64,000 bases of DNA from assembly GCF_001050195.2 (NCBI RefSeq), contig NZ_DF967966.1, positions 20,118 to 84,117 on the forward strand, read 5' to 3'. The translations under genes were made by a program, and so were the position numbers. Below, one piece after another: positions 11,194-27,504 of the stretch. The first letter of the stretch is position 1; each line of letters opens with the position of its first letter. Under the pieces are notes generated by a model, which was not told the DNA's origin, did no database searches, and saw nothing but the letters and a program-made list of their open reading frames with translations. The DNA is from Anaerolinea thermolimosa (GTDB taxonomy: Bacteria; Chloroflexota; Anaerolineae; Anaerolineales; Anaerolineaceae).

Positions 11194-12429
11194 ATGATCT
11201 ATGAGATTGAACTCACCACGCTGACCTACGGCGGCGAAGCCCTGGGACGATTGCCCGACGGGCGTGCCGTGTTTGTACCTTTTGCCCTGCCGGGAGAACG
11301 TGTTCGGGTGGAACTGGTGGAAGATAAACGCGGTTACGCGCGCGGCAGGCTGGTTGAGGTGCTCCGTCCGGCTCCCGGGCGCATTGCCCCGCGTTGTGCC
11401 CACTTTACTGCCTGCGGCGGATGCCATTACCAGCACCTCTCTTATGCCGATCAGCTGGAGGCCAAAACCAGCATCCTGAAAGACCAGCTGGAACGCATTG
11501 CGGGGATAACCAACCCGCCCATGCGGCCCATTGTGCCTTCAGCCAGCCCCTGGTACTATCGAAACACCGTTCAGTTTCACCTCGACCCGCAGGGGAAACT
11601 GGGGTTTCAGGCCGTGGATGGAAAGACGGTTGTGGCGATCAGGGAATGCCACCTCCCTGAGGAACCCCTCAATGAGCTCTGGCCACAGCTCGATTTCGAG
11701 CCGCTCCCTGGCCTGGAACGCATTGCCCTGCGGCTGGATGCGCGTGGCGAAGTACTGGTGACGCTGGAAAGCACGACCCCCGAAGCTCCTGCCCTGAGCG
11801 TGGAAGAACTGCCGGTTTCGGTGGTCTTCCTCAGCCCCGAAGGCCCCACTGTACTGGCCGGCGAGGCCTTCGCCGTGCTGGAGGTGCTCAGGCGTCCCTT
11901 CCGCGTCTCAGCCGGGTCTTTCTTCCAGGTCAATACCGCCATGGCCGGGGCGATGGTGACCCATCTGCTCGAAACGTTGCCCCTGAAAGACGGGCAGACC
12001 ATCCTCGATCTCTACTGCGGGGTGGGCCTGTTCAGTGCGTTTCTCGCTCCGCGCGCAGGGCGGCTGATCGCCGTGGAGTCGGCCCCCTCTGCCTGCGAAG
12101 ACTTCATCTTCAACCTGGATGAATTCGATCATGTAGAGCTCTACCAGGGAGAAGCCGGGGTGGTGTTGCCCTCTCTGGAGGTACAACCCCAGATCGCCAT
12201 CGTCGACCCGCCGCGCGCCGGATTGGAGAGGCCCGCCCTCGACGCCCTCCTGCGGTTGCGACCCGACGTGCTGGCCTACGTCTCCTGTGACCCGGCCACC
12301 CTGGCCCGCGATTGCAAGCGTCTGCTCTCCGGCGGGTATGCCCTGCAACAGGTGACCCCTTTCGATCTCTTTCCACAAACTTACCATGTGGAGAGTGTGG
12401 TATTGATGACAAATGTAAAAAACAAGTGA
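11194..12429 (+). CDS. 23S rRNA (uracil-C5)-methyltransferase, RlmD/TrmA family
   Basis: A 411-residue class I methyltransferase that makes 5-methyluridine in RNA. It has an N-terminal TRAM RNA-binding domain (about 1-58), an iron-sulfur cysteine motif with CAHFTACGGCHYQH near 67-80, the sequence FFQVNTAMA, the SAM loop LDLYCGVGLFSAF, DPPRAGL and the catalytic-cysteine motif YVSCDPATLARD. These fit RlmD/RumA-type enzymes. Bacteria with one member of this family can modify more than one 23S site, so the exact uridine is not certain. Immediately after its stop the base composition changes to a foreign island. Confidence 0.92.
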   Translation: MIYEIELTTLTYGGEALGRLPDGRAVFVPFALPGERVRVELVEDKRGYARGRLVEVLRPAPGRIAPRCAHFTACGGCHYQHLSYADQLEAKTSILKDQLERIAGITNPPMRPIVPSASPWYYRNTVQFHLDPQGKLGFQAVDGKTVVAIRECHLPEEPLNELWPQLDFEPLPGLERIALRLDARGEVLVTLESTTPEAPALSVEELPVSVVFLSPEGPTVLAGEAFAVLEVLRRPFRVSAGSFFQVNTAMAGAMVTHLLETLPLKDGQTILDLYCGVGLFSAFLAPRAGRLIAVESAPSACEDFIFNLDEFDHVELYQGEAGVVLPSLEVQPQIAIVDPPRAGLERPALDALLRLRPDVLAYVSCDPATLARDCKRLLSGGYALQQVTPFDLFPQTYHVESVVLMTNVKNK

Positions 12430-12922
12430 GCGCCTGAAAAACGGCTTCAATTCAGGGTTTTCCCGTGATTTGCCGCCCGCGGGAAATTTGCTTTTTGGCG
12501 ACGGAGATGCCGGGAAGCCCTGTATTTTTATGTGTTTGATTATTCAAGGAAACACATCTACAGTCTTTGGGAGCGGCTCTCGGCGGGCGGGGTTGTGTAG
12601 ACGAAAAAGACGGCGGTTGATTGTTTGCGGGAACATGTCTACTGTTATTTTAATTTATATGAGGTTTATGAATTATCAAGGCATGATTAAATGAATATTA
12701 AAGAACCGTATCATAAGTAGTCGATTTTATAATAGTCAAGACTTAACAAGGTTAAAATTGAATTAGACAATTGCATGAATTATTATGTGATTCATACAAA
12801 TGTATGCTTTTAAAAAAGGTGGTATTTGCATGTATACTTGTTTTATATCATATGGTTTGTAACAACCTGAGAGATCCCCTCCTGATAAAGTTATTCTTAA
12901 AAACTTTAAATAAAAGGAGGAT
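12430..12922. other. Non-coding stretch at left edge of foreign island
   Basis: No convincing gene. The first 40 bases hold a weak hairpin (CCTGAA with TTCAGG, 12433-12456, followed by GTTTT) that could end the methyltransferase transcript. Between about 12545 and 12645 a motif like ACATCTACAGT recurs, once as ACATGTCTACTGT and once inverted as TTGTGTAGAC. From about 12640 the sequence becomes very AT-rich. The last part is the leader of the gene at 12923. Confidence 0.6.
12876..12920 (+). promoter_or_regulatory. Possible RBS-sequestering hairpin
   Basis: CCTCCT (12878-12883) can pair with AGGAGG (12915-12920), the ribosome site of the gene at 12923. Inside, AAAGTT (12887-12892) can pair with AACTTT. 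Together they form a nested stem-loop that would hide the ribosome site, as in translational attenuators of some resistance genes. Whether it does so in the cell is not known. Confidence 0.4.
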
Positions 12923-13699
12923 ATGACTGTGAAGAAAATATTAGCAAATAAAGAATTATACGATTCCTTGATTAATGAAGTAAACGAAAAGTTTGAAGGA
13001 TGGGATTTTATATATTTGGAATCAACCAAAAGAATGCAAGAGTTCCCACTGAGTTGGAATTATAGAAATAAAGTGAAGACTAGAATGTTCGGAACATCTT
13101 CGTTATTAGATATGGGAACAGGTGGCGGAGAGTTTTTATCTTCATTAAGTCCATTACCTGAATATACTTGTGCCACGGAGGGATATGAGCCCAATATAGT
13201 CATTGCAAGGAAAAGACTAGAACCTCTGGGTGTAAAAGTATATAAAGTTGATGATGATGAATCCTTGCCATTTAGCGCTGAAACTTTTGATTTAATAATA
13301 AACAGGCATGAATCTTATTTTGCGCGGGAAGTAGAAAGGATTCTCAAAAAACAAGGAACTTTTATAACTCAGCAGGTTGGCGGCTTAAATGATAAGGAAA
13401 TCAATGAACTTTTAGGTGCCCCTAAGAGTCAGTATTATAACTGGAATTTAGAAACTGCAGTTAGAGAGTTAAGTGAGGCTGGATTAAAAGTAACTGAGCA
13501 AAAGGAAGATATAGTTAAAACGAGATTTTATGATATTGGAGCCATTGTATTTTATTTAAAAGCAATACCGTGGCAGGTACCGGATTTTACAGTAGAAAAA
13601 TATTTTGAAAGACTTAAAGAAATTAATAATCTAATCCAAAAAGAAGGATATATCGACTTTACGTGTCACAGGTTTTTTATTATAGCAAATAAACAATAA
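12923..13699 (+). CDS. SAM-dependent methyltransferase (imported)
   Basis: A 258-residue class I methyltransferase. The SAM-binding motif LLDMGTGGGEF lies near residues 61-71, with an acidic residue in ATEGYEPN and the post-motif FDLIINRHESYF. The substrate is not evident; distant relatives include RNA and small-molecule methyltransferases. The ATG at 12923 has a perfect AAGGAGG just upstream. The gene is strikingly AT-rich with A/T-ending codons, unlike its neighbours, and resembles Firmicutes genes, so it was probably acquired by transfer. A leader hairpin may control its translation. Confidence 0.8.
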   Translation: MTVKKILANKELYDSLINEVNEKFEGWDFIYLESTKRMQEFPLSWNYRNKVKTRMFGTSSLLDMGTGGGEFLSSLSPLPEYTCATEGYEPNIVIARKRLEPLGVKVYKVDDDESLPFSAETFDLIINRHESYFAREVERILKKQGTFITQQVGGLNDKEINELLGAPKSQYYNWNLETAVRELSEAGLKVTEQKEDIVKTRFYDIGAIVFYLKAIPWQVPDFTVEKYFERLKEINNLIQKEGYIDFTCHRFFIIANKQ

Positions 13700-13732
13700 T
13701 AATTTTTAATACCCTGACTTTTATTTATATCA

Positions 13733-14005
13733 GGATTTCCCAAGGCAATTGAGCTTCTGGAGAATGGATTGGAGGATTCTCTGGCTTTCTATGCGTTTCC
13801 GGATCTGGACGCTCGCAAAATCTCTTCCACCAACATGCTGGAACGGCTGAATAAAGAAATCCGCCGCAGAACCAGCGTTGTCGGAATCTTTCCGAATCCG
13901 GATTCATACCTGCGGCTGGTGACGACATACCTCATGGAATATGCCGAGGACTGGTCCGCCTCACGCGCGTATCTCAGTCCTCAAGCTCTTCAGGCACCAT
14001 CTTAG
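13733..14005 (+). pseudogene. IS256-family transposase, C-terminal remnant
   Basis: About 90 codons matching the end of Mutator/IS256 transposases: PKAIELLENGLEDSL, then STNMLERLNKEIRRR, VVGIFPN and a final helix before the stop at 14003-14005. The catalytic DDE residues before the last glutamate region are missing, since the frame begins abruptly at about 13733 after AT-rich sequence. It is a dead fragment. Its GC-rich codons differ from the AT-rich methyltransferase gene next to it, showing at least two sources of DNA. Confidence 0.85.
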
Positions 14006-14688
14006 AGTCGCAATGTCATTTACACTGCCGCATGGCAACAAAACAGAAATTTATTTATCGATAATTAGTTTCATTGCATAATGGGATGATTGTGCATACG
14101 CCTTATAAATTATGCTTCTGAATTTATTAGATAGGCGAAGTTAAAATATACTACCCATCCGCCCTTACACCCGTTTCCCTACGCATATCGAGACGGTAGT
14201 ATTGATGTCAAGAGTGGAAAAGCAGATGTAAAAAAGCCTTTTAAGGCAATGCTTTTACCACACATGGTAATAAAAACCACCAGTCGAAAACGAGATTTTT
14301 TCACTTTGAGGGAATAAGTCCATTATGGCAGTCTTTGATAGTTAAGTGGTCAGTTTAGATGTCAGTGCCCCGCGAATATACAGGTTAGATGTCAGTCTTT
14401 GTGAGTGGTCGATTTGGATATTTTTCGGATTTGACAGGGGTTGTGTGGTCGGGTTGGATATTAGTATAATGCTGTGTTCATGATTAAAGCGATAAATCGG
14501 AATTTGTCTTTTTATTAGATAAATAGATGATGCCGAGAATAATTTGCAAGACTTTAGTTCTTCCTCGGCAACATATCAAACATCATACCACGACTAAAAA
14601 ATTCGAATGTTAATAAGCGTTGCTTGTGGCAACGGGCAGTTCTTCATAATAATAGTGCTAACGACTGAAAGAAATGAGGTTATCCACA
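14006..14688. other. Non-coding stretch with decayed sequence
   Basis: No complete gene is seen. A frame without a start codon is open from 14135 to a stop at 14315-14317 and encodes about 60 residues including DGSIDVKSGKADVKKPF; it may be the tail of a lost gene but is not recognised. IS21-like end repeats follow at 14346-14464. The rest is AT-rich and leads into the XRE gene. Confidence 0.55.
14346..14464. repeat. IS21-like terminal repeats without transposase
   Basis: A degenerate motif recurs in the same direction: GTGGTCAGTTTAGATGTCAG at 14346-14365, CAGGTTAGATGTCAG at 14381-14395, GTGGTCGATTTGGATAT from 14405, and GTGGTCGGGTTGGATATTAG at 14445-14464. Several spaced copies of about 20 bases at an element end are typical of IS21-family transposase-binding sites. 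No istA or istB gene is present, so this is a remnant end. Confidence 0.5.
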
Positions 14689-15198
14689 ATGTTAAAAGAA
14701 AACATTAAAGCAATCAGAAAATCAAAAGGACTTTCGCAAGAAGAACTTGCTATAAAGTTGAATGTGGTGCGACAAACAATCTCTAAATGGGAGCAAGGAC
14801 TGTCAGTTCCTGATTCGGAGATGCTAATTTCCTTATCGGAAGTGCTTGAAACACCCGTAAGCACTTTGCTTGGGGAAACTGTTATGGAGTCGAAAGTTGA
14901 TGATTTAAAAGCGATTTCCGAAAAACTGGAAATTATAAACTTACAGCTTGCACAGAGAAAGACCACGCGAAGAAAAATACTTCATTGGCTACTTATCTCA
15001 TTGTGCACGGTCATAATAATAATTTCTGCGGTCTTAATAGCATTAAACAGTCCTTACTTAGCCTGGAGTTATAGTGACCCTGAAACTGCCGTTGCCGGAG
15101 CAGCTTTTCACGCATTTGAATGGCTGTTTGTCAGATTAGCACCGATTATACTTATTGGGGCAATCGTTGGAATTTTTTTGACACGGAAGAAAGTATAA
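14689..15198 (+). CDS. XRE-family regulator with C-terminal membrane helices
   Basis: A 169-residue protein with a Cro/C1-type helix-turn-helix at residues 2-57 (IRKSKGLSQEELAIKL, RQTISKWEQG) followed by a short linker and two hydrophobic segments at about 102-122 and 145-165. Membrane-tethered XRE regulators of this kind are common in Firmicutes. The ATG at 14689 is chosen because GAGG lies 9 bases upstream; an in-frame ATG at 14674 is an alternative. AT-rich, within the foreign island. Targets are unknown. Confidence 0.8.
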   Translation: MLKENIKAIRKSKGLSQEELAIKLNVVRQTISKWEQGLSVPDSEMLISLSEVLETPVSTLLGETVMESKVDDLKAISEKLEIINLQLAQRKTTRRKILHWLLISLCTVIIIISAVLIALNSPYLAWSYSDPETAVAGAAFHAFEWLFVRLAPIILIGAIVGIFLTRKKV

Positions 15199-15332
15199 AA
15201 CGGCTCTACTTTTGGGATACCGCTCAAAATCTTGATAACGATGAAGTTGACAGCAACCTCATGATATCGACGACGGAATCCTTGGCTCAGGCTGAAAATG
15301 AAAGCCGAAGCGGTAATATTCTGATCTTATGA
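15199..15332 (+). pseudogene. C-terminal remnant of an unknown gene
   Basis: A frame running through here, with AQNLDNDEVDSNL and ending ENESRSGNILIL, stops with a TGA that overlaps the ATG of the next gene as ATGA. Such an overlap is typical of coupled genes, so this is probably the tail of a partner gene whose front was lost when the XRE segment joined. No start codon belongs to it and no family is recognised. Confidence 0.35.
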
Positions 15333-15802
15333 GTAATACCGAAAGAGGCCGACTGGCCGAATTTATAGTAGCCATGGCGCCTGGTATTACAGAGGGTATT
15401 AGCACATCATGGGATCAATATGATTTGCTTTCCAAAGAAGGCATTCGTATAGAAGTCAAGACTTCTGCATATCTTCAGTCCTGGAACCAACAGAATTTGT
15501 CAAAAATTAGCTTTAGTATTCAGCCTACCTACGGCTGGAATAGCATTACAAACGAATATGATGCAGAACAAAAGCGCCAGTCCGACGTCTATGTGTTTTG
15601 CGTCCTGAAACATATAGATCAGGCGACCCTTAATCCGCTTGATCTGTCCCGGTGGGAATTTTATGTCTTGTCAACAGCTGTTTTGAATAAAACTGTGCCG
15701 GGGCAAAAAACGATCTTGCTTAACAAGCTTTTCAATATTGGAGTCAAAAAGTGCGAATATGCTGCATTGAATAAAACTATTAAGCATGAGGCAGCGCATT
15801 AA
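15329..15802 (+). CDS. PD-(D/E)XK nuclease-like protein
   Basis: A 157-residue soluble protein. Residues YD32, then IE42VK44 in GIRIEVKTS, fit the D-X(n)-E-X-K active site of the PD-(D/E)XK nuclease fold, with E11 in GRLAEFIVA as a possible helper. Other conserved-looking parts are SDVYVFCVLKH and WEFYVLST. The function is probably DNA cleavage, as in orphan restriction enzymes, but no methyltransferase partner is adjacent. Its ATG overlaps the stop of an upstream remnant, suggesting it was once part of a two-gene unit. Moderate GC, unlike both flanks. Confidence 0.6.
   Translation: MSNTERGRLAEFIVAMAPGITEGISTSWDQYDLLSKEGIRIEVKTSAYLQSWNQQNLSKISFSIQPTYGWNSITNEYDAEQKRQSDVYVFCVLKHIDQATLNPLDLSRWEFYVLSTAVLNKTVPGQKTILLNKLFNIGVKKCEYAALNKTIKHEAAH
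15782..15794 (+). repeat. 13-base direct repeat, copy 1
   Basis: AAGCATGAGGCAG occurs here, inside the last codons of the nuclease-like gene, and again at 15841-15853. The pair marks the junction between the foreign island and core sequence. Confidence 0.6.
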
Positions 15803-15840
15803 TGGATATTAACTCAATCAGACTTCCTCCCCCATCTGTG

Positions 15841-15853
15841 AAGCATGAGGCAG
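15841..15853 (+). repeat. 13-base direct repeat, copy 2
   Basis: Second exact copy of AAGCATGAGGCAG, 59 bases after the first and just before normal GC-rich sequence resumes. It could be a slippage duplication, a target-site remnant or an insertion scar. Confidence 0.6.
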
Positions 15854-15969
15854 AGTTTTTTAAGGTTCGAGCGTCTCTTTGCGCGCTATGATAAACCTTA
15901 AACCGTGCGCTTCGCCGCCTTCTTTGCCCCCTCGAACCGACCCTTAACCGTGCCTTCCGGGAGGTTGCG

Positions 15970-17256
15970 ATGATTACCGAGAAAGCTGAAACCGAAGCGA
16001 AGGAACTGACCCTCCAATTGCTCCAGCGCCTTTTCAACGGCGCGCCCGAACTCAACGTCCGCCTGTGGGATGGTACTTTCTGGCCCGACTCTACCCCTCA
16101 CCGCGTAACACTGGTGCTCAACCACCCGGGGGCGCTGCGCGCCATGCTCCTGCCCGGTACCGAAGTTGGTCTGGTTGAAGCCTACCTTTACAATGACATC
16201 GACCTCGAAGGTGAGATCGAGAGCGTTTACGGAGCGGCTGAGCAGCTTGCCGCCCAGACCGATAACTGGAAGAAGAAACTCGGCGTGGCCCGCGACCTGT
16301 TGCGCCTGCCCGACCAGCAAAACCCCCGTATTTCTCGCCGCGGCCCGGCCAGGTTGAGCGGGAAGCCTCATTCCATCGAACGCGACCGTCAGGCCATTGC
16401 CTACCATTACAACGTCTCCAACGACTTTTACGCTCTCTTCCTCGGGAAGCGCATGGTGTATTCCTGCGCGTATTTCCGCACCCCGGAAGACGACCTGGAT
16501 ACCGCGCAGGAGCAAAAATTGGAACACATCTGCCGGAAACTGGGCCTCAAAGCCGGGCAGCGCTTGCTGGATATCGGTTGCGGCTGGGGCGGGCTGGTGA
16601 TCTACGCGGCTGAGCGCTACGGGGTCGATGCCACGGGCATCACTCTGAGCCAGCCCCAGGCCGAGCTGGCCAGCCAGCGCATTGCTGAAGCCGGGCTCGA
16701 GGGACGTGCCCGTGTGCTCCTTAAAGATTATCGCGAGGTAAACGACTTCGGCGCTTACGACCGGCTGGTGAGCGTGGGAATGTTCGAACATGTGGGTGAG
16801 GCACTGTTACCGGTGTACTTTGAACGCGCCTGGCGACTGCTTAAGCCGGGCGGGTTGTTCCTCAACCATGGCATCGCCCGACGGGCTGTGGCCCGCGGGT
16901 GGGACCCACAGTCGTTCAGCAACGCCTACGTTTTCCCGGATGGAGAGTTATTGCCCATTTCTCATACCCTGCGTGTGGCAGAGGAGAGCGGCTTTGAAGT
17001 CCGTGACGTAGAGAGCCTGCGCGAACATTACGCCATGACCCTGCGCCACTGGGTGCACAACCTCGAAAGCCATCACGACCGGGCCATCCAGTTTGTAGAT
17101 GAACCCACCTACCGCGTCTGGCGGGTATTTATGTCGGGCTCAGCCCACGGCTTTGCCAGCGGACGACTGAATGTGTATCAGAGTCTGCTGGTAAAGCCAG
17201 ACGAGCACGGCGCGAGCGGCCTGCCGCTCACCCGCGAGGCCTGGTATCGGGCTTGA
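15970..17256 (+). CDS. cfa: Cyclopropane-fatty-acyl-phospholipid synthase family
   Basis: A 428-residue enzyme of the CFA synthase family, which adds a methylene from SAM across double bonds of membrane lipid acyl chains. The N-terminal lipid-binding domain covers about 1-140; YHYNVSNDFYALFLG, MVYSCAYF and the SAM loop LLDIGCGWGG (199-208) follow, with FEHVG further on. Length and order match the family. The ATG at 15970 has GGGAGG 5 bases upstream. It is convergent with the DNA glycosylase gene, with 15 bases between stops. It directly follows the foreign island. Confidence 0.92.
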   Translation: MITEKAETEAKELTLQLLQRLFNGAPELNVRLWDGTFWPDSTPHRVTLVLNHPGALRAMLLPGTEVGLVEAYLYNDIDLEGEIESVYGAAEQLAAQTDNWKKKLGVARDLLRLPDQQNPRISRRGPARLSGKPHSIERDRQAIAYHYNVSNDFYALFLGKRMVYSCAYFRTPEDDLDTAQEQKLEHICRKLGLKAGQRLLDIGCGWGGLVIYAAERYGVDATGITLSQPQAELASQRIAEAGLEGRARVLLKDYREVNDFGAYDRLVSVGMFEHVGEALLPVYFERAWRLLKPGGLFLNHGIARRAVARGWDPQSFSNAYVFPDGELLPISHTLRVAEESGFEVRDVESLREHYAMTLRHWVHNLESHHDRAIQFVDEPTYRVWRVFMSGSAHGFASGRLNVYQSLLVKPDEHGASGLPLTREAWYRA

Positions 17257-24125: not shown

Positions 24126-24782
24126 ATGAAACGTTACATCACCGTGGCTGGAAACATTGGAGTGGGTAAATCTACCCTGGTTCAGTTGTTGTGTCAGAAG
24201 CTGGGCTGGCAACCTTTTTACGAGCCGGAATCCCGGAACCCCTACCTGGCCGACTTTTATCAGAACATGGCCGCCTGGGGTTTTCATTCACAGGTATTCT
24301 TCCTGGCCAACCGCCTGCAAATTCACCGTCAGATCATCCGCTGTGCCGAATCGGTCATTCAAGACCGCAGCATCTACGAAGACGCAGAAATTTTTGCCGC
24401 AAACCTTCACCAGCAGGGACTGATTGACGCACGTGACTGGGAGACTTACCGCGCCCTATACCACGGATTGATTGAATTTCTCCCCCCGCCCGACCTGGTC
24501 ATCTACCTGCGGGCCACCCCTGAGACCCTGCTTGAACGGATTGCCCGGCGCAACCGTGATTATGAACGGGGCATCAGCCGGGCCTACCTCGAGAGTCTGA
24601 ACGAGTTATATGAGCGGTGGATCGAGAACTTCACCCTTTGCCCGGTGCTCACCGTGCCCGCCGATCAATTAAATTACGTTGCGCGCCCCATGCACCTGGA
24701 GCTGGTGGCGCGCAAAATCCATGAAAAACTGGCGGGCAAAGACGTGGTCATCTTTGCCCCCGATGAAATCGCTCAGATTTAG
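24126..24782 (+). CDS. Deoxynucleoside kinase
   Basis: A 218-residue P-loop kinase of the deoxyguanosine/deoxyadenosine kinase family (dNK). The Walker A motif GNIGVGKS is at 9-16, followed by the substrate-binding YEPESRNPYL, QDRSIYEDAEIF and the lid ERIARRNRDYE. It phosphorylates salvaged deoxynucleosides. It is cotranscribed with the DsbA-like gene (15-base gap, weak GCAGG ribosome site). A second paralogue is at 26711-27358, on the other side of the likely origin; pairs with different base preferences are known in Firmicutes. Confidence 0.9.
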   Translation: MKRYITVAGNIGVGKSTLVQLLCQKLGWQPFYEPESRNPYLADFYQNMAAWGFHSQVFFLANRLQIHRQIIRCAESVIQDRSIYEDAEIFAANLHQQGLIDARDWETYRALYHGLIEFLPPPDLVIYLRATPETLLERIARRNRDYERGISRAYLESLNELYERWIENFTLCPVLTVPADQLNYVARPMHLELVARKIHEKLAGKDVVIFAPDEIAQI

Positions 24783-24799
24783 GTTCAAACATCCATATA

Positions 24800-25060
24800 T
24801 CAGCGTGGCTCAACCACCAGCTTGATGGCGGTACGCACCTTCCCTTCAATTTCTACATCTACAAACTCCGGTACGGCAACGATGGGAATTCCATCCTCTG
24901 CCAGGTACCCTTTTGCCAGCACCAGCGCCTTAATGGCCTGGTTCACTGCACCTGCGCCGATCGCCTGCACTTCAGCACGTTTGTGCTCCCGAACCACACC
25001 GGCAATCGCCCCCGCCACGGCTGCAGTGCGGGAATTTGCTTTGACCTTGATCACGTCCAT
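24800..25060 (-). CDS. spoVS: SpoVS family protein
   Basis: An 86-residue protein of the SpoVS family (MDVIKVKANSRT, VAGAIAGVVREH, KALVLAKGYLAEDG, then VEIEGKVRTAIKLVVEP). SpoVS is a small Alba-like-fold protein needed for coat assembly in Bacillus, but it is also found in non-sporulating bacteria such as Thermus and Chloroflexota, where its role is unclear and nucleic-acid binding is suspected. GGAG lies 10 bases before the ATG, and a TTGAAT-17-TACAAT promoter is present. It lies next to the DnaA-box cluster. Confidence 0.92.
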   Translation of the reverse strand: MDVIKVKANSRTAAVAGAIAGVVREHKRAEVQAIGAGAVNQAIKALVLAKGYLAEDGIPIVAVPEFVDVEIEGKVRTAIKLVVEPR

Positions 25061-25140
25061 TGCAATGGTTCTCCTTCCTTGAAATCGATGACGCGCGCGA
25101 AGCTATTTTCATGCCAAGGGGGCATTACGCCTGCATTCTG

Positions 25141-25169
25141 ATTGTAACGAAAAGCTATTCGAGATTCAA
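25141..25169 (-). promoter_or_regulatory. Promoter of spoVS
   Basis: On the minus strand TTGAAT (25169-25164) and TACAAT (25146-25141) are 17 bases apart, giving a start near 25134 and a leader of about 74 bases. Confidence 0.5.
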
Positions 25170-25302
25170 GAGATAATCTATATCAAATGGATACAATTTG
25201 GCCATGAGAAGATTCCAGACTGAGCTGGCAGGCTTTTCCCTTATCCATGCTCATTAATCAATGATAAGGATGGATTCGTATTAACAGTAGGGGCTGGGGA
25301 TA

Positions 25303-25603
25303 TGTGGATAACTCGTAAATCTGGCTTTAAAAACGCCAGATATGGGGGATACTCCCCCTTAACCACCGGTATCCGGGGTTTGAAGAGGCCTTTTTTATCC
25401 ACAGGGCGTTTGGGATAGTTCGGAAATAAGTTATCCACATTTTCCACAGGGTTTTCCGCACAGAAAAGATATGGCGCGGTGTGAAAATACCCCCCCAGAT
25501 CTGGGGGGGTGGGCTGGAAAGGCCGGATGAGTTTTCGGACAAAATTTCTGGACTTATCCACATTCAAAGGGGGTTATCCACAGTTTTCCTCATTTTATCC
25601 ACA
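25303..25603. other. oriC: Candidate oriC: cluster of six perfect DnaA boxes
   Basis: TTATCCACA occurs perfectly at 25395-25403, 25431-25439, 25554-25562, 25574-25582 and 25595-25603 on the plus strand and at 25303-25311 on the minus strand. TTTTCCACA at 25440-25448 is a further consensus variant. Six perfect 9-mers in 300 bases of non-coding DNA is the hallmark of a bacterial replication origin. The AT-rich stretch at 25140-25200 could be the unwinding element. dnaA and dnaN are not in the window, so a DnaA-titration site is the main alternative. Confidence 0.75.
25489..25510. repeat. GC-rich perfect palindrome inside oriC candidate
   Basis: A 22-base perfect palindrome: seven Cs, AGATCT, seven Gs, flanked by A and T. 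It lies between the two groups of DnaA boxes. It could form a cruciform or bind a dimeric protein. Confidence 0.7.
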
Positions 25604-25653
25604 ATTTTACCGGGTTCTTACTGTGCGTGAACGTTTCCATATCTGGGGGTGGT

Positions 25654-26676
25654 TCACTCTTGAAAGGGTATGACGCCATGGTTTTCTCCCCAGGCATCGA
25701 GGATTTCTTCTACCTGATCAAGATAGGCATCCAGGGCCTCCAGACGGCTTGCGAAGTGGTTTCGATCCAGGCCCACCATCTGGCAGGTTTCCTGCCAGGG
25801 TAAAATAACCGGAGAGTCTGCCGGAACGTGCGCCACAGAGAGCGTCCAGATGCGCATTAAAACCCAGAAGGCCGCTCCGGGGTTTCCTTCCCACAGGGCA
25901 CTGGCGGCGCGGCTGTAATACGCACTGCGGCAGGAGTGTAAGCGGGTGGGGAAGGTCTCCTGCGAAGAAACCTGCTGGAAGGCTTCATCCCAGTGACGCA
26001 TCCAGCTTTGCCAGACATCATCGCTCACCTCCACTTCACCGGCCAGCAACGCAGAGAGGCTGGCCGAAAGCTGTGGCCTGCCCAGTGCTGCGGCCCGACG
26101 GGGAAGCTCCAGTAAAAAACGCCGTTCGGTGAGCGGTGGGCCGGTGAGAACGGCGAAGGCGTTCCCGGCGTTCTCAAGTGCCTTCAGAAAACCAACCACC
26201 CGACGGCGATGGTCAGAAGAGGGGGCAAAAGCGAGATTGCTCCATTCCTGGCGGGCGAGGCTGGCCAGAGCCCGTGCTCGCGCCAGCACGTACTCTGGCT
26301 GGAGGAACTGTGCCCCCGTGGCGGCCTGGATGTAATCGAACCAGTGACGCGAGTCGTAAAGCACCAGGGGTTTGTTATAGATGAAAGGCCCCAGCCAGGG
26401 GTGAGTGCGTAATTGCCGCGGCTGGCGGAACAACGCTTCGGAGTAGTGACTGATATCCAGGTGGATTTCATCGCTCAGTCGCACCATTTCGCGGGGTTCG
26501 AGGGGTTCACTGTCGTGGATGATCACCAGATCAATATCTGTGGTACCCCCCAGCAGGGGGTCTTCGCTCAGGCAGGAACCCACCAGGTAAATACAGATCA
26601 ACCTGCGGCTGATCTTTGCCCGTTGTTCGGCTGTTTCGCGGGCAATGCGGAGCAGAGTATCGCGAGTGATGCGCAT
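25654..26676 (-). CDS. Nucleotidyltransferase-domain protein
   Basis: A 340-residue protein with an N-terminal polymerase-beta-type nucleotidyltransferase domain (VGSCLSEDPLLGGTTDIDLV near 32-51, giving G-S and D-x-D metal ligands) and a helical C-terminal region of about 200 residues, reminiscent of HEPN-type or substrate-binding helices. Substrate unknown; relatives modify antibiotics, tRNA or proteins. The ATG at 26676 has GGGAGG 4 bases upstream, better than an in-frame start at 26709. It follows the second deoxynucleoside kinase gene by 34 bases and may be cotranscribed. Confidence 0.75.
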   Translation of the reverse strand: MRITRDTLLRIARETAEQRAKISRRLICIYLVGSCLSEDPLLGGTTDIDLVIIHDSEPLEPREMVRLSDEIHLDISHYSEALFRQPRQLRTHPWLGPFIYNKPLVLYDSRHWFDYIQAATGAQFLQPEYVLARARALASLARQEWSNLAFAPSSDHRRRVVGFLKALENAGNAFAVLTGPPLTERRFLLELPRRAAALGRPQLSASLSALLAGEVEVSDDVWQSWMRHWDEAFQQVSSQETFPTRLHSCRSAYYSRAASALWEGNPGAAFWVLMRIWTLSVAHVPADSPVILPWQETCQMVGLDRNHFASRLEALDAYLDQVEEILDAWGENHGVIPFQE

Positions 26677-26710
26677 GAAACCTCCCTGATTTGAATGCGC
26701 CGTCTCCAAT

Positions 26711-27358
26711 CTACTCGTGCAGGGGCAGGGGCAGTTCGGGCTGGTAGGGCGCCAGCTCTAACGCCTGGCGGATGCGGTTCTCGATCCAGTGCAAATCTTC
26801 GGGAAAACGCACGAAATCGAGCCGGTCTGCCTCAATAACCAGCACCGGAGCAGTGTGCACGTGCCGGTGTAAGAAGAATTCGTCGTAAGCCCGGTTAAGC
26901 TCAGCGATGTATGCGCGTTCCATGTTGCGTTCGTAAGGGCGATCGCGCTGGGTGATGCGTGCCATGAGCAGGTCGGTGCTGGCGCGCAGGTAAACGATCA
27001 GATCAGGCGATTGGACTTTCTCGGCCAGGGCCTCATGCACCCGATGATACATTTCCAGTTCGTCTCCCTGCAGGTTGATGCCCGCGAATAGCGCGTCTTT
27101 CTCGAATGTGTAATCGCTGATCAGATTTTTCCCGTCACGGGTCAGCTCTGGAATGCCCCGCCGCTGCTGATGGTAGCGGCTGAGGAGGAAGAAGATCTGC
27201 GTCTGAAACGCATAACGTGCACGATCTTCATAGAATTTACTGAGAAATGGATTTTCTTCGAAGACTTCCAGCAGCAGATTGGCCTGGAAGGAGGGTTGAA
27301 GCAGACGCGCCAGGGTGGTCTTTCCGACGCCAATCACGCCCTCAATTGCAAGGTACAT
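26711..27358 (-). CDS. Deoxynucleoside kinase (second paralogue)
   Basis: A 215-residue kinase of the dNK family with Walker A GVIGVGKT at 7-14, EVFEENPFLSKFYED, ISDYTFEKDALF and the lid RITQRDRPYERNM. It phosphorylates salvaged deoxynucleosides and probably differs in base choice from the copy at 24126. The start codon has AGGAG 6 bases upstream (ATG at 27358). It heads a two-gene minus-strand unit with the nucleotidyltransferase gene. Confidence 0.9.
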   Translation of the reverse strand: MYLAIEGVIGVGKTTLARLLQPSFQANLLLEVFEENPFLSKFYEDRARYAFQTQIFFLLSRYHQQRRGIPELTRDGKNLISDYTFEKDALFAGINLQGDELEMYHRVHEALAEKVQSPDLIVYLRASTDLLMARITQRDRPYERNMERAYIAELNRAYDEFFLHRHVHTAPVLVIEADRLDFVRFPEDLHWIENRIRQALELAPYQPELPLPLHE

Positions 27359-27504
27359 GCTCATCTCCTGAGGTGATCTCACTCAATATATACCATAGTT
27401 TTCTCCACAGACTGTGGAGAACTCCGAATCGGAGAAGCTGCTCGCGTTTGCTGAGTTGCTTCTCCTTTACAGGCAGGTGCCGAACCTTCTGGCCGGTGAA
27501 AACT

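Follow-up and report, generated by a model that had tools for sequence, protein, structure and literature searches.

A probable chromosomal replication origin away from dnaA in Anaerolinea thermolimosa, with NrdR-box-like palindromes

A chromosomal replication origin, separated from dnaA, very probably lies at positions 25241-25650 of the DNA analysed here, a stretch of 64,000 nucleotides from Anaerolinea thermolimosa (hereafter the window, C2:20118-84117 of genome G000). Between its DnaA boxes, the origin holds palindromes of the CCCCCATATATGGGGG type (C-rich, ATATAT, then G-rich in the alignment), and we put at roughly three in four the probability that an origin together with NrdR-box palindromes, two strong and one weak, jointly explains the region. 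The new element would be these NrdR-like sites, which appear to tie together the origin, dnaA and nrdR. In the open-licence literature we found no paper on an Anaerolineales origin, nor on a link between NrdR and an origin.

Features are listed in Table 1. The first-pass annotation had reported six TTATCCACA boxes (five direct, one inverted) and one TTTTCCACA within 25303-25603, and all these positions were confirmed. The motif TTWTNCACA is present 9 times in the window against 2.63 expected, a count reached in 0 of 100 shuffles. Because the whole genome (4.17 Mb, six contigs) has only 108 TTWTCCACA, the clustering of the seven boxes in 301 bp does not result from chance, which is excluded by a Poisson estimate of ~1e-12 for the genome. 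In the mechanical ORF list, minus-strand ORFs of 108 and 78 aa cross the boxes; we consider the box interval between spoVS and the 351-aa ORF as probably non-coding. The only source for the name nucleotidyltransferase, given earlier to the 351-aa ORF, is that first-pass annotation, and searches of Pfam and NCBIfam with the ORF returned no match. Deoxynucleoside kinase genes stand on both sides of the block formed by spoVS, the origin and the 351-aa ORF, and one or both kinase homologues adjoin the cluster in G007, G035, G014, G047, G016 and G008.

Table 1. Features of the predicted origin and its surroundings, in window positions.
Feature	Position	Strand	Basis
Second deoxynucleoside kinase	24126-24782	+	
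spoVS, conserved neighbour on the unwinding side	24800-25060	-	Pfam SpoVS, E 1.3e-33
Putative spoVS promoter: -10 TACAAT 25141-25146, -35 TTGAAT 25164-25169, spacer 17 bp	25141-25169	-	12-region alignment
Candidate AT-rich unwinding stretch, 68% AT	25241-25281	.	position beside the DnaA-trio
DnaA-trio run TAACAGTAG, complement 5'-CTACTGTTA-3'	25282-25290	-	three triplets
G-rich stretch after the trio run	25290-25300		
Putative degenerate DnaA box adjoining box 25303	25294-25302	-	alignment
DnaA box TTATCCACA, inverted, beside the unwinding module	25303-25311	-	motif scan
NrdR-box-like site A ACGCCAGATATGGGGG, 17.5 bits	25333-25348	.	matrix
DnaA box TTATCCACA	25395-25403	+	motif scan
Abutting DnaA box pair, TTATCCACA at 25431 then TTTTCCACA at 25440	25431-25448	+	motif scan
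NrdR-box-like site B CCCCCAGATCTGGGGG, 20.4 bits	25492-25507	.	matrix; one of two strict places
DnaA box triplet TTATCCACA, starts 25554, 25574, 25595 (steps of 20 and 21 bp)	25554-25603	+	
Weak NrdR-box-like site C TTTCCATATCTGGGGG, 8.8 bits	25634-25649	.	matrix
351-aa ORF	25654-26709	-	homologue adjoins box cluster in six relatives with spoVS elsewhere
Deoxynucleoside kinase	26711-27382	-	Pfam dNK

Upon alignment of 12 regions, the order on the top strand is AT-rich, TAG/TAA triplets, G-rich, often a box-like TGTGGATA, and then TGTGGATAA. Read from the box, the module is TTATCCACA, a C-rich stretch and CTACTATTA, and we take this order of box, GC stretch and DnaA-trio to be the one described for Bacillus subtilis and Helicobacter pylori (excerpt of PMC8235120). 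Several relatives have a better box, of the TGTGGA type, at the position of the degenerate one. Runs of at least four triplets are found in 4 of 16 regions, and the genome under study has only three triplets. A regular expression detected the module in 31 of the 44 named loci with at least 3 boxes, and a relaxed form of it in 47 of 71 loci. The stretch 25140-25200 (70.5% AT), proposed in the first pass as the one that could unwind, coincides with an element conserved in the 12-region alignment and read as the spoVS promoter. Since that stretch is mostly conserved promoter, the opening site is more likely to be 25241-25290.

Cumulative skew, a check suggested by the first-pass annotation, has its minimum at C2:45195, window position 25078, 225 bases from the first box; it was computed on C2:1-424,000 (of 431,281), and C1 was only sampled. 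In the stretches of C1 that were sampled, skew was positive over 0.05-1.2 Mb, mixed over 1.28-1.36 Mb and negative over 1.4-3.44 Mb; the first 20 kb of this contig had a negative skew and a GC content of 39.5%. On C2, the running G-C count went up to 220 kb, dropped partially to 300 kb and went up again to 420 kb, the dip between 220 and 300 kb being a local disturbance of the skew. Under the assumption that C1 and C2, the two contigs covered (four further ones make up 300 kb), form one circle, the skew fits an origin at the box cluster and a terminus near C1:1.3 Mb. Elsewhere in the window, a low-GC island at ~12000-16000 (38-42% GC per 2-kb step, where the window as a whole has 58%) has positive skew within a negative stretch, and looks like acquired DNA.

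Neither dnaA nor dnaN is next to the boxes. The dnaA gene is at C1:433939-435273, on the other large contig, with no TTWTCCACA nearby, and a dnaN-type match is at C2:124620-125249, 79 kb from the cluster. The earlier statement that the origin would be apart from its usual neighbours is right for dnaA, and needs correction for the dnaN-type match, which shares the contig. A perfect parS palindrome and a copy with one mismatch were found 72 kb off, at C2:118014 and 118081; looser parS matches were no commoner than the control. An intergenic box cluster, the skew minimum of the replicon and an unwinding module come together in this region, and the proposal of a candidate origin away from dnaA is supported by the skew minimum, the boxless dnaA, the conserved layout and neighbours, the trio module and parS. 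The dnaA locus itself was ruled out as the origin by skew and boxes, both in this genome and in G033. Two weak Bac_DnaA matches in one frame at C2:219754-220683 of G000 correspond to another protein, perhaps of the AAA+ type.

We searched for the palindrome in its strict form, CCYAKATMTRGGG. The whole genome has it at only two places, C2:45610, in the origin, and C1:435612, ~340 bp upstream of dnaA, against one place for the reversed control; being hardly commoner than its control in this genome, it speaks only by its position. Among 81 genomes, there were 129 forward matches versus 23 for the reversed control. The third place of the palindrome in relatives is upstream of nrdR: among the matches listed, the 88 strict places in the 41 own-family genomes with a match, to which this classing was limited, were distributed between box pairs (25), nrdR (22), dnaA (16) and elsewhere (25), one of the last, G033:C1:677608, lying in the G033 box cluster. 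Sites A and B have C and G nine positions apart around an A/T-rich centre, AGATAT and AGATCT respectively, that is not pure A/T. The palindrome was also considered as a DnaA-ATP 6-mer, as site B contains AGATCT, and this was rejected, most aligned relatives having ATAT-type centres.

A longer search, with the 16-mer CCCCHATATATDGGGG in 301 genomes of the phylum, matched 17 of them, the genome under study not being among these. With one place counted per genome (further places in G007, G014 and G189 were left out), 13 of the 17 loci had at least 2 DnaA boxes within 250 bp, two were at dnaA and two at neither. Six of the 17 genomes had been searched before (G003, G007, G014, G047, G059 and G072); for the others, 9 of 11 loci were at DnaA boxes. 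Two of the 13 box-associated loci belong to a family outside the order, within the class. Because only these 17 of the 301 genomes contain the 16-mer, and the one under study does not, we make no claim beyond the class.

Sites were then scored by a 16-position matrix trained on the nrdR promoters of 29 relatives, with the single best site taken from each and the own genome excluded. As background, the own genome yielded 3 sites scoring 12 bits or more over 416,700 positions. Within the family, 38 of 49 genomes were scored, and box clusters with a site of at least 12 bits amounted to 19 of 24, 7 of 11 and 3 of 3 in successive sets (G045, G010 and G046 being outside the first set and added later); the total is 29 of 38, and 9 of 38 clusters have no such site. 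For the first set of 24 clusters, 0.14 sites were expected. When 27 regions were shuffled by dinucleotides, the mean was 0.22 sites and the maximum 2, versus 27 found. Of the 80 named spoVS loci, 76 were scanned (L125, L140, L164 and L174 have too little upstream DNA): a site of this strength was present in 43 of the 44 with at least 3 boxes, versus 8 of the 32 without boxes. It was also present within 600 bp upstream of dnaA in 27 of 30 cases, mostly ~330-360 bp before the start. In other families, box pairs adjacent to dnaA had a site in 1 case out of 9 (G057, with three sites), and the region upstream of nrdR reached 12 bits in 9 of 16 genomes.

The third gene was recognized as nrdR by ORF reading, and this was confirmed by TIGR00244 in three proteins (L286, L298 and own). 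In the own genome, the order is ftsZ, nrdR and a nrdJ-like ORF, where the putative ftsZ is named after its likeness to the L298 neighbour (TIGR00065) and the ORF following nrdR is read, from its sequence, as the B12-dependent reductase nrdJ. Upstream of this nrdR are GTCGTATATATACGGC and CCGCCAGATATGGGGG, 31 bp apart, the second site having G and C swapped at positions described as conserved. When distances of 14-70 bp were searched in nrdR promoters, the highest-scoring second site fell 30-31 bp from the first in 25 of 30; it fell at this distance also in 13 of 16 genomes from other families, where the range searched was 25-45 bp. NrdR boxes are described as pairs separated by three turns (excerpts of PMC12051234 and PMC9110341), with conserved G-C pairs (excerpt of PMC9110341); the spacing is an integer number of turns, sometimes four.

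We read the palindromes as sites for NrdR, which represses ribonucleotide reductase and senses ATP and dATP, an assignment that is likely and somewhat less firm than that of the origin. The best of the other explanations accepts the origin as described, and has the palindromes bound by another factor, in control of nrdR, dnaA and the origin. NrdR is indeed tied to the sites by sequence alone. As to pairing, only 10 of the 25 second nrdR sites at 30-31 bp reach 4 bits, dnaA sites have weak partners at 32-33 bp in 14 of 30 cases and at 39-41 bp in 10 of 30, and origin sites, mainly 118-176 bp apart, are for the most part single at the three-turn scale, without a 31-bp partner. An origin pair of two good sites three turns apart was found only in G022 (identical to L187), G032 and L114, and a weaker one in G024. 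In G059, moreover, the origin site is perfect and the nrdR sites are below 7 bits. We nevertheless hold another factor to be unlikely, since the motif upstream of nrdR, with its partner at 30-31 bp, has the known NrdR geometry, and since the core C-N-ATATAT-N-G places C and G nine positions apart, like the G-C pairs of NrdR boxes (excerpt of PMC9110341).

The NrdR protein itself may account for part of the difference between these palindromes and known boxes. Residue 17 of the own NrdR is Ser; elsewhere among the N-termini read (24 of 30 loci), it is Thr, Ser, Ala or Asn. In PDB chain 9gex, which we take to be E. coli NrdR, it is Arg. In the structure of Streptomyces coelicolor NrdR, Arg17 is one of two specificity residues (excerpt of PMC9110341). 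The lack of this Arg could explain the altered flanks of the boxes, the relation being one of correlation only.

Of the 47 relaxed-module loci, some genomes being counted twice, 32 have site A at a distance that matches helical steps: it follows the trio/G run by 29-31 bp in 16 loci, 39-42 bp in 11, 59-61 bp in 4 and 72 bp in 1. After removal of near copies, the gaps that flank the strongest site had a best period of 10.75 bp on the left (n=41) and 10.95 bp on the right (n=36). In 3000 uniform draws, no case was as regular, in tests that ignore shared ancestry. Left and right gaps pooled gave no clear single period. This geometry suggests that the sites are constrained to a given face of the helix, like NrdR boxes (excerpt of PMC12051234).

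A second cluster of similar size, at C2:16848-17016, has six TTWTCCACA on one strand, mostly 21-22 bp apart. It is situated 28.5 kb from the first, 3.1 kb left of the window, and is flanked by genes for a P450 and a TPR protein. Together with the extra clusters of several relatives, it raises the idea that the first cluster is a DnaA titration or reactivation site, similar to datA or DARS, and that the true origin is elsewhere, for instance at this second cluster. We judge this very improbable. Skew reaches its minimum at the first cluster and not at the second, whereas a datA/DARS-like cluster would be away from the origin; no trio module was seen by eye in the second cluster, where the sole matrix match, of 14.1 bits, overlaps a box; and the first cluster has conserved neighbours, spoVS or the 351-aa ORF. 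The second cluster is possibly itself a DnaA-titration or regulatory site. Among 10 secondary clusters scanned, sites of at least 12 bits were found only in G016 (two) and in the own second cluster (one). The G016 cluster (G016:C6:42229-42855) has nine DnaA boxes and two NrdR-like sites 32 bp apart, the one of G008 (G008:C31:58626-59184) has eight DnaA boxes, and in G001 a box pair likewise adjoins a TPR homologue.

The origin layout recurs among relatives. At least 3 TTWTCCACA within 400 bp were found at 18 of 30 spoVS loci, own included, and of the 80 named loci, 45 carry a cluster of at least 3 boxes in the 2.5 kb that precede spoVS, with boxes frequent at ~-430, -409 and -253, and inverted at ~-138; named and unnamed sets overlap, as judged from coordinates or from identical site offsets (L182=G033, L150=G002, L187=G022, L181=G005, L189=G016 and L177=G023). 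The spacing of the triple box, 20 and 21 bp, is found again in many relatives. That the boxes, upstream of spoVS and its conserved promoter, would be operators for the control of spoVS by DnaA is barely credible, as the cluster stays by the 351-aa-ORF homologue in G003 (within 0.8 kb) and in G007, G035, G014, G047 and G017 (within 0.1 kb), all with spoVS on another contig or 140 kb away, and as the skew minimum would be left unexplained. In G001, G034, G024 and G045, the stretch around the cluster contained no spoVS, and BLAST gave no homologue of the 351-aa ORF there; these four were counted as candidate origins by box layout alone. G045 has two further boxes upstream of spoVS, and its matrix score refers to that region.

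The relatives' skew was tested in three genomes. In G033 (Longilinea arvoryzae KOME-1), 12.5 kb separate the local minimum (664,869) from the cluster (677,410-677,710), and dnaA, at 3.83 Mb, is within the negative arm. In G059, a local minimum at 501,263 is 4 kb from the boxes at 505,323, in a weak global profile, and in G048 the local minimum (986,009) and the cluster (1,036,303) are 50 kb apart, in an irregular profile. A box pair within 0.6 kb of dnaA exists in 9 of 32 other-family genomes (G050, G051, G057, G058, G062, G063, G064, G076 and G077), and in none of the own-family genomes for which dnaA and a box pair are both listed. At one other-family locus, L371 (G057:C424:1-8000), dnaA is between the boxes and spoVS, and three NrdR-like sites are 169 and 171 bp apart; an ancestral arrangement is a possible reading of this layout. 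A simple model in which origin and spoVS became neighbours once an intervening dnaA was lost does not agree with G057, where dnaA is on the triple-box side. The succession of spoVS, trio, boxes and 351-aa ORF provides a landmark to place origins in Anaerolineales genomes where dnaA misleads.

By the standard mechanism, as far as the sequence suggests it, DnaA would first occupy the three grouped boxes together with the middle ones; the inverted box next to the G-rich/DnaA-trio module would follow, after which DnaA would open the AT-rich stretch towards spoVS. With both dATP and ATP, NrdR assembles into tetramers, which attach to two boxes and kink the DNA; with ATP alone, it is in a non-binding form (excerpt of PMC9110341). 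At high dATP, tetramers loaded with dATP and ATP would bind and kink the sites, and NrdR could bridge sites A and B, 159 bp apart, into a loop around the middle boxes. Such a loop would make it harder for the DnaA filament to reach the trio and for DnaA to assemble at the origin, and NrdR at the site upstream of dnaA would lower DnaA synthesis; upon a fall of dATP, NrdR would release its sites. The sites, with their positions, conservation and spacing, are observed, and the identity of the protein, the looping and the direction of the effect are inferred.

Extended to the Anaerolineales, the proposal is that a dATP-sensing NrdR acts as a built-in regulator that binds phased sites at oriC and in front of dnaA, with bridging loops of ~12-16 helical turns, and we give it even odds. 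If true, one nucleotide sensor would set both precursor synthesis and the start of replication, and how replication start is matched to precursor supply is an old question. In E. coli, there is reportedly a link from DnaA to the nrd genes. The present sites suggest the opposite link, from a nucleotide sensor to the origin and dnaA, and the exact predicted sites are given here, open to testing. In Caulobacter, excess dNTPs delay S-phase entry (PMC12186491), and the excerpted text of that paper makes no claim of NrdR at the origin.

Compared with known systems, the predicted origin shares DnaA boxes, a GC stretch, a DnaA-trio (5'-YTR-3' in complementary form) and an AT-rich stretch with the basal unwinding system of B. 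subtilis and H. pylori oriC (excerpts of PMC8235120 and PMC10225481). It differs from them in not being beside dnaA or dnaN, and in the NrdR-like palindromes embedded in it. E. coli oriC is located between gidA and mioC. With this origin and the oriC of Synechococcus elongatus, near dnaN, the present one would share a DnaA-dependent start away from dnaA (excerpt of PMC10225481). Its neighbours are instead spoVS, the 351-aa ORF and deoxynucleoside kinases, with the dnaN-type match at 79 kb. Known NrdR boxes have an ATATAT-like core. Those before ribonucleotide reductase genes in S. coelicolor, E. coli and Listeria are, like the sites described here, palindromes with conserved G-C pairs, and they are paired at three turns, as here mainly those upstream of nrdR (excerpts of PMC9110341 and PMC12051234). 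The sites found here differ by C/G-rich flanks, by a residue 17 of NrdR that is T, S, A or N and not R in the N-termini read, and by further occurrences at oriC and dnaA. CtrA, Spo0A, MtrA and HP1021 are other transcription factors that also bind the origin, and to our knowledge none of them is a direct dNTP sensor, as NrdR would be.
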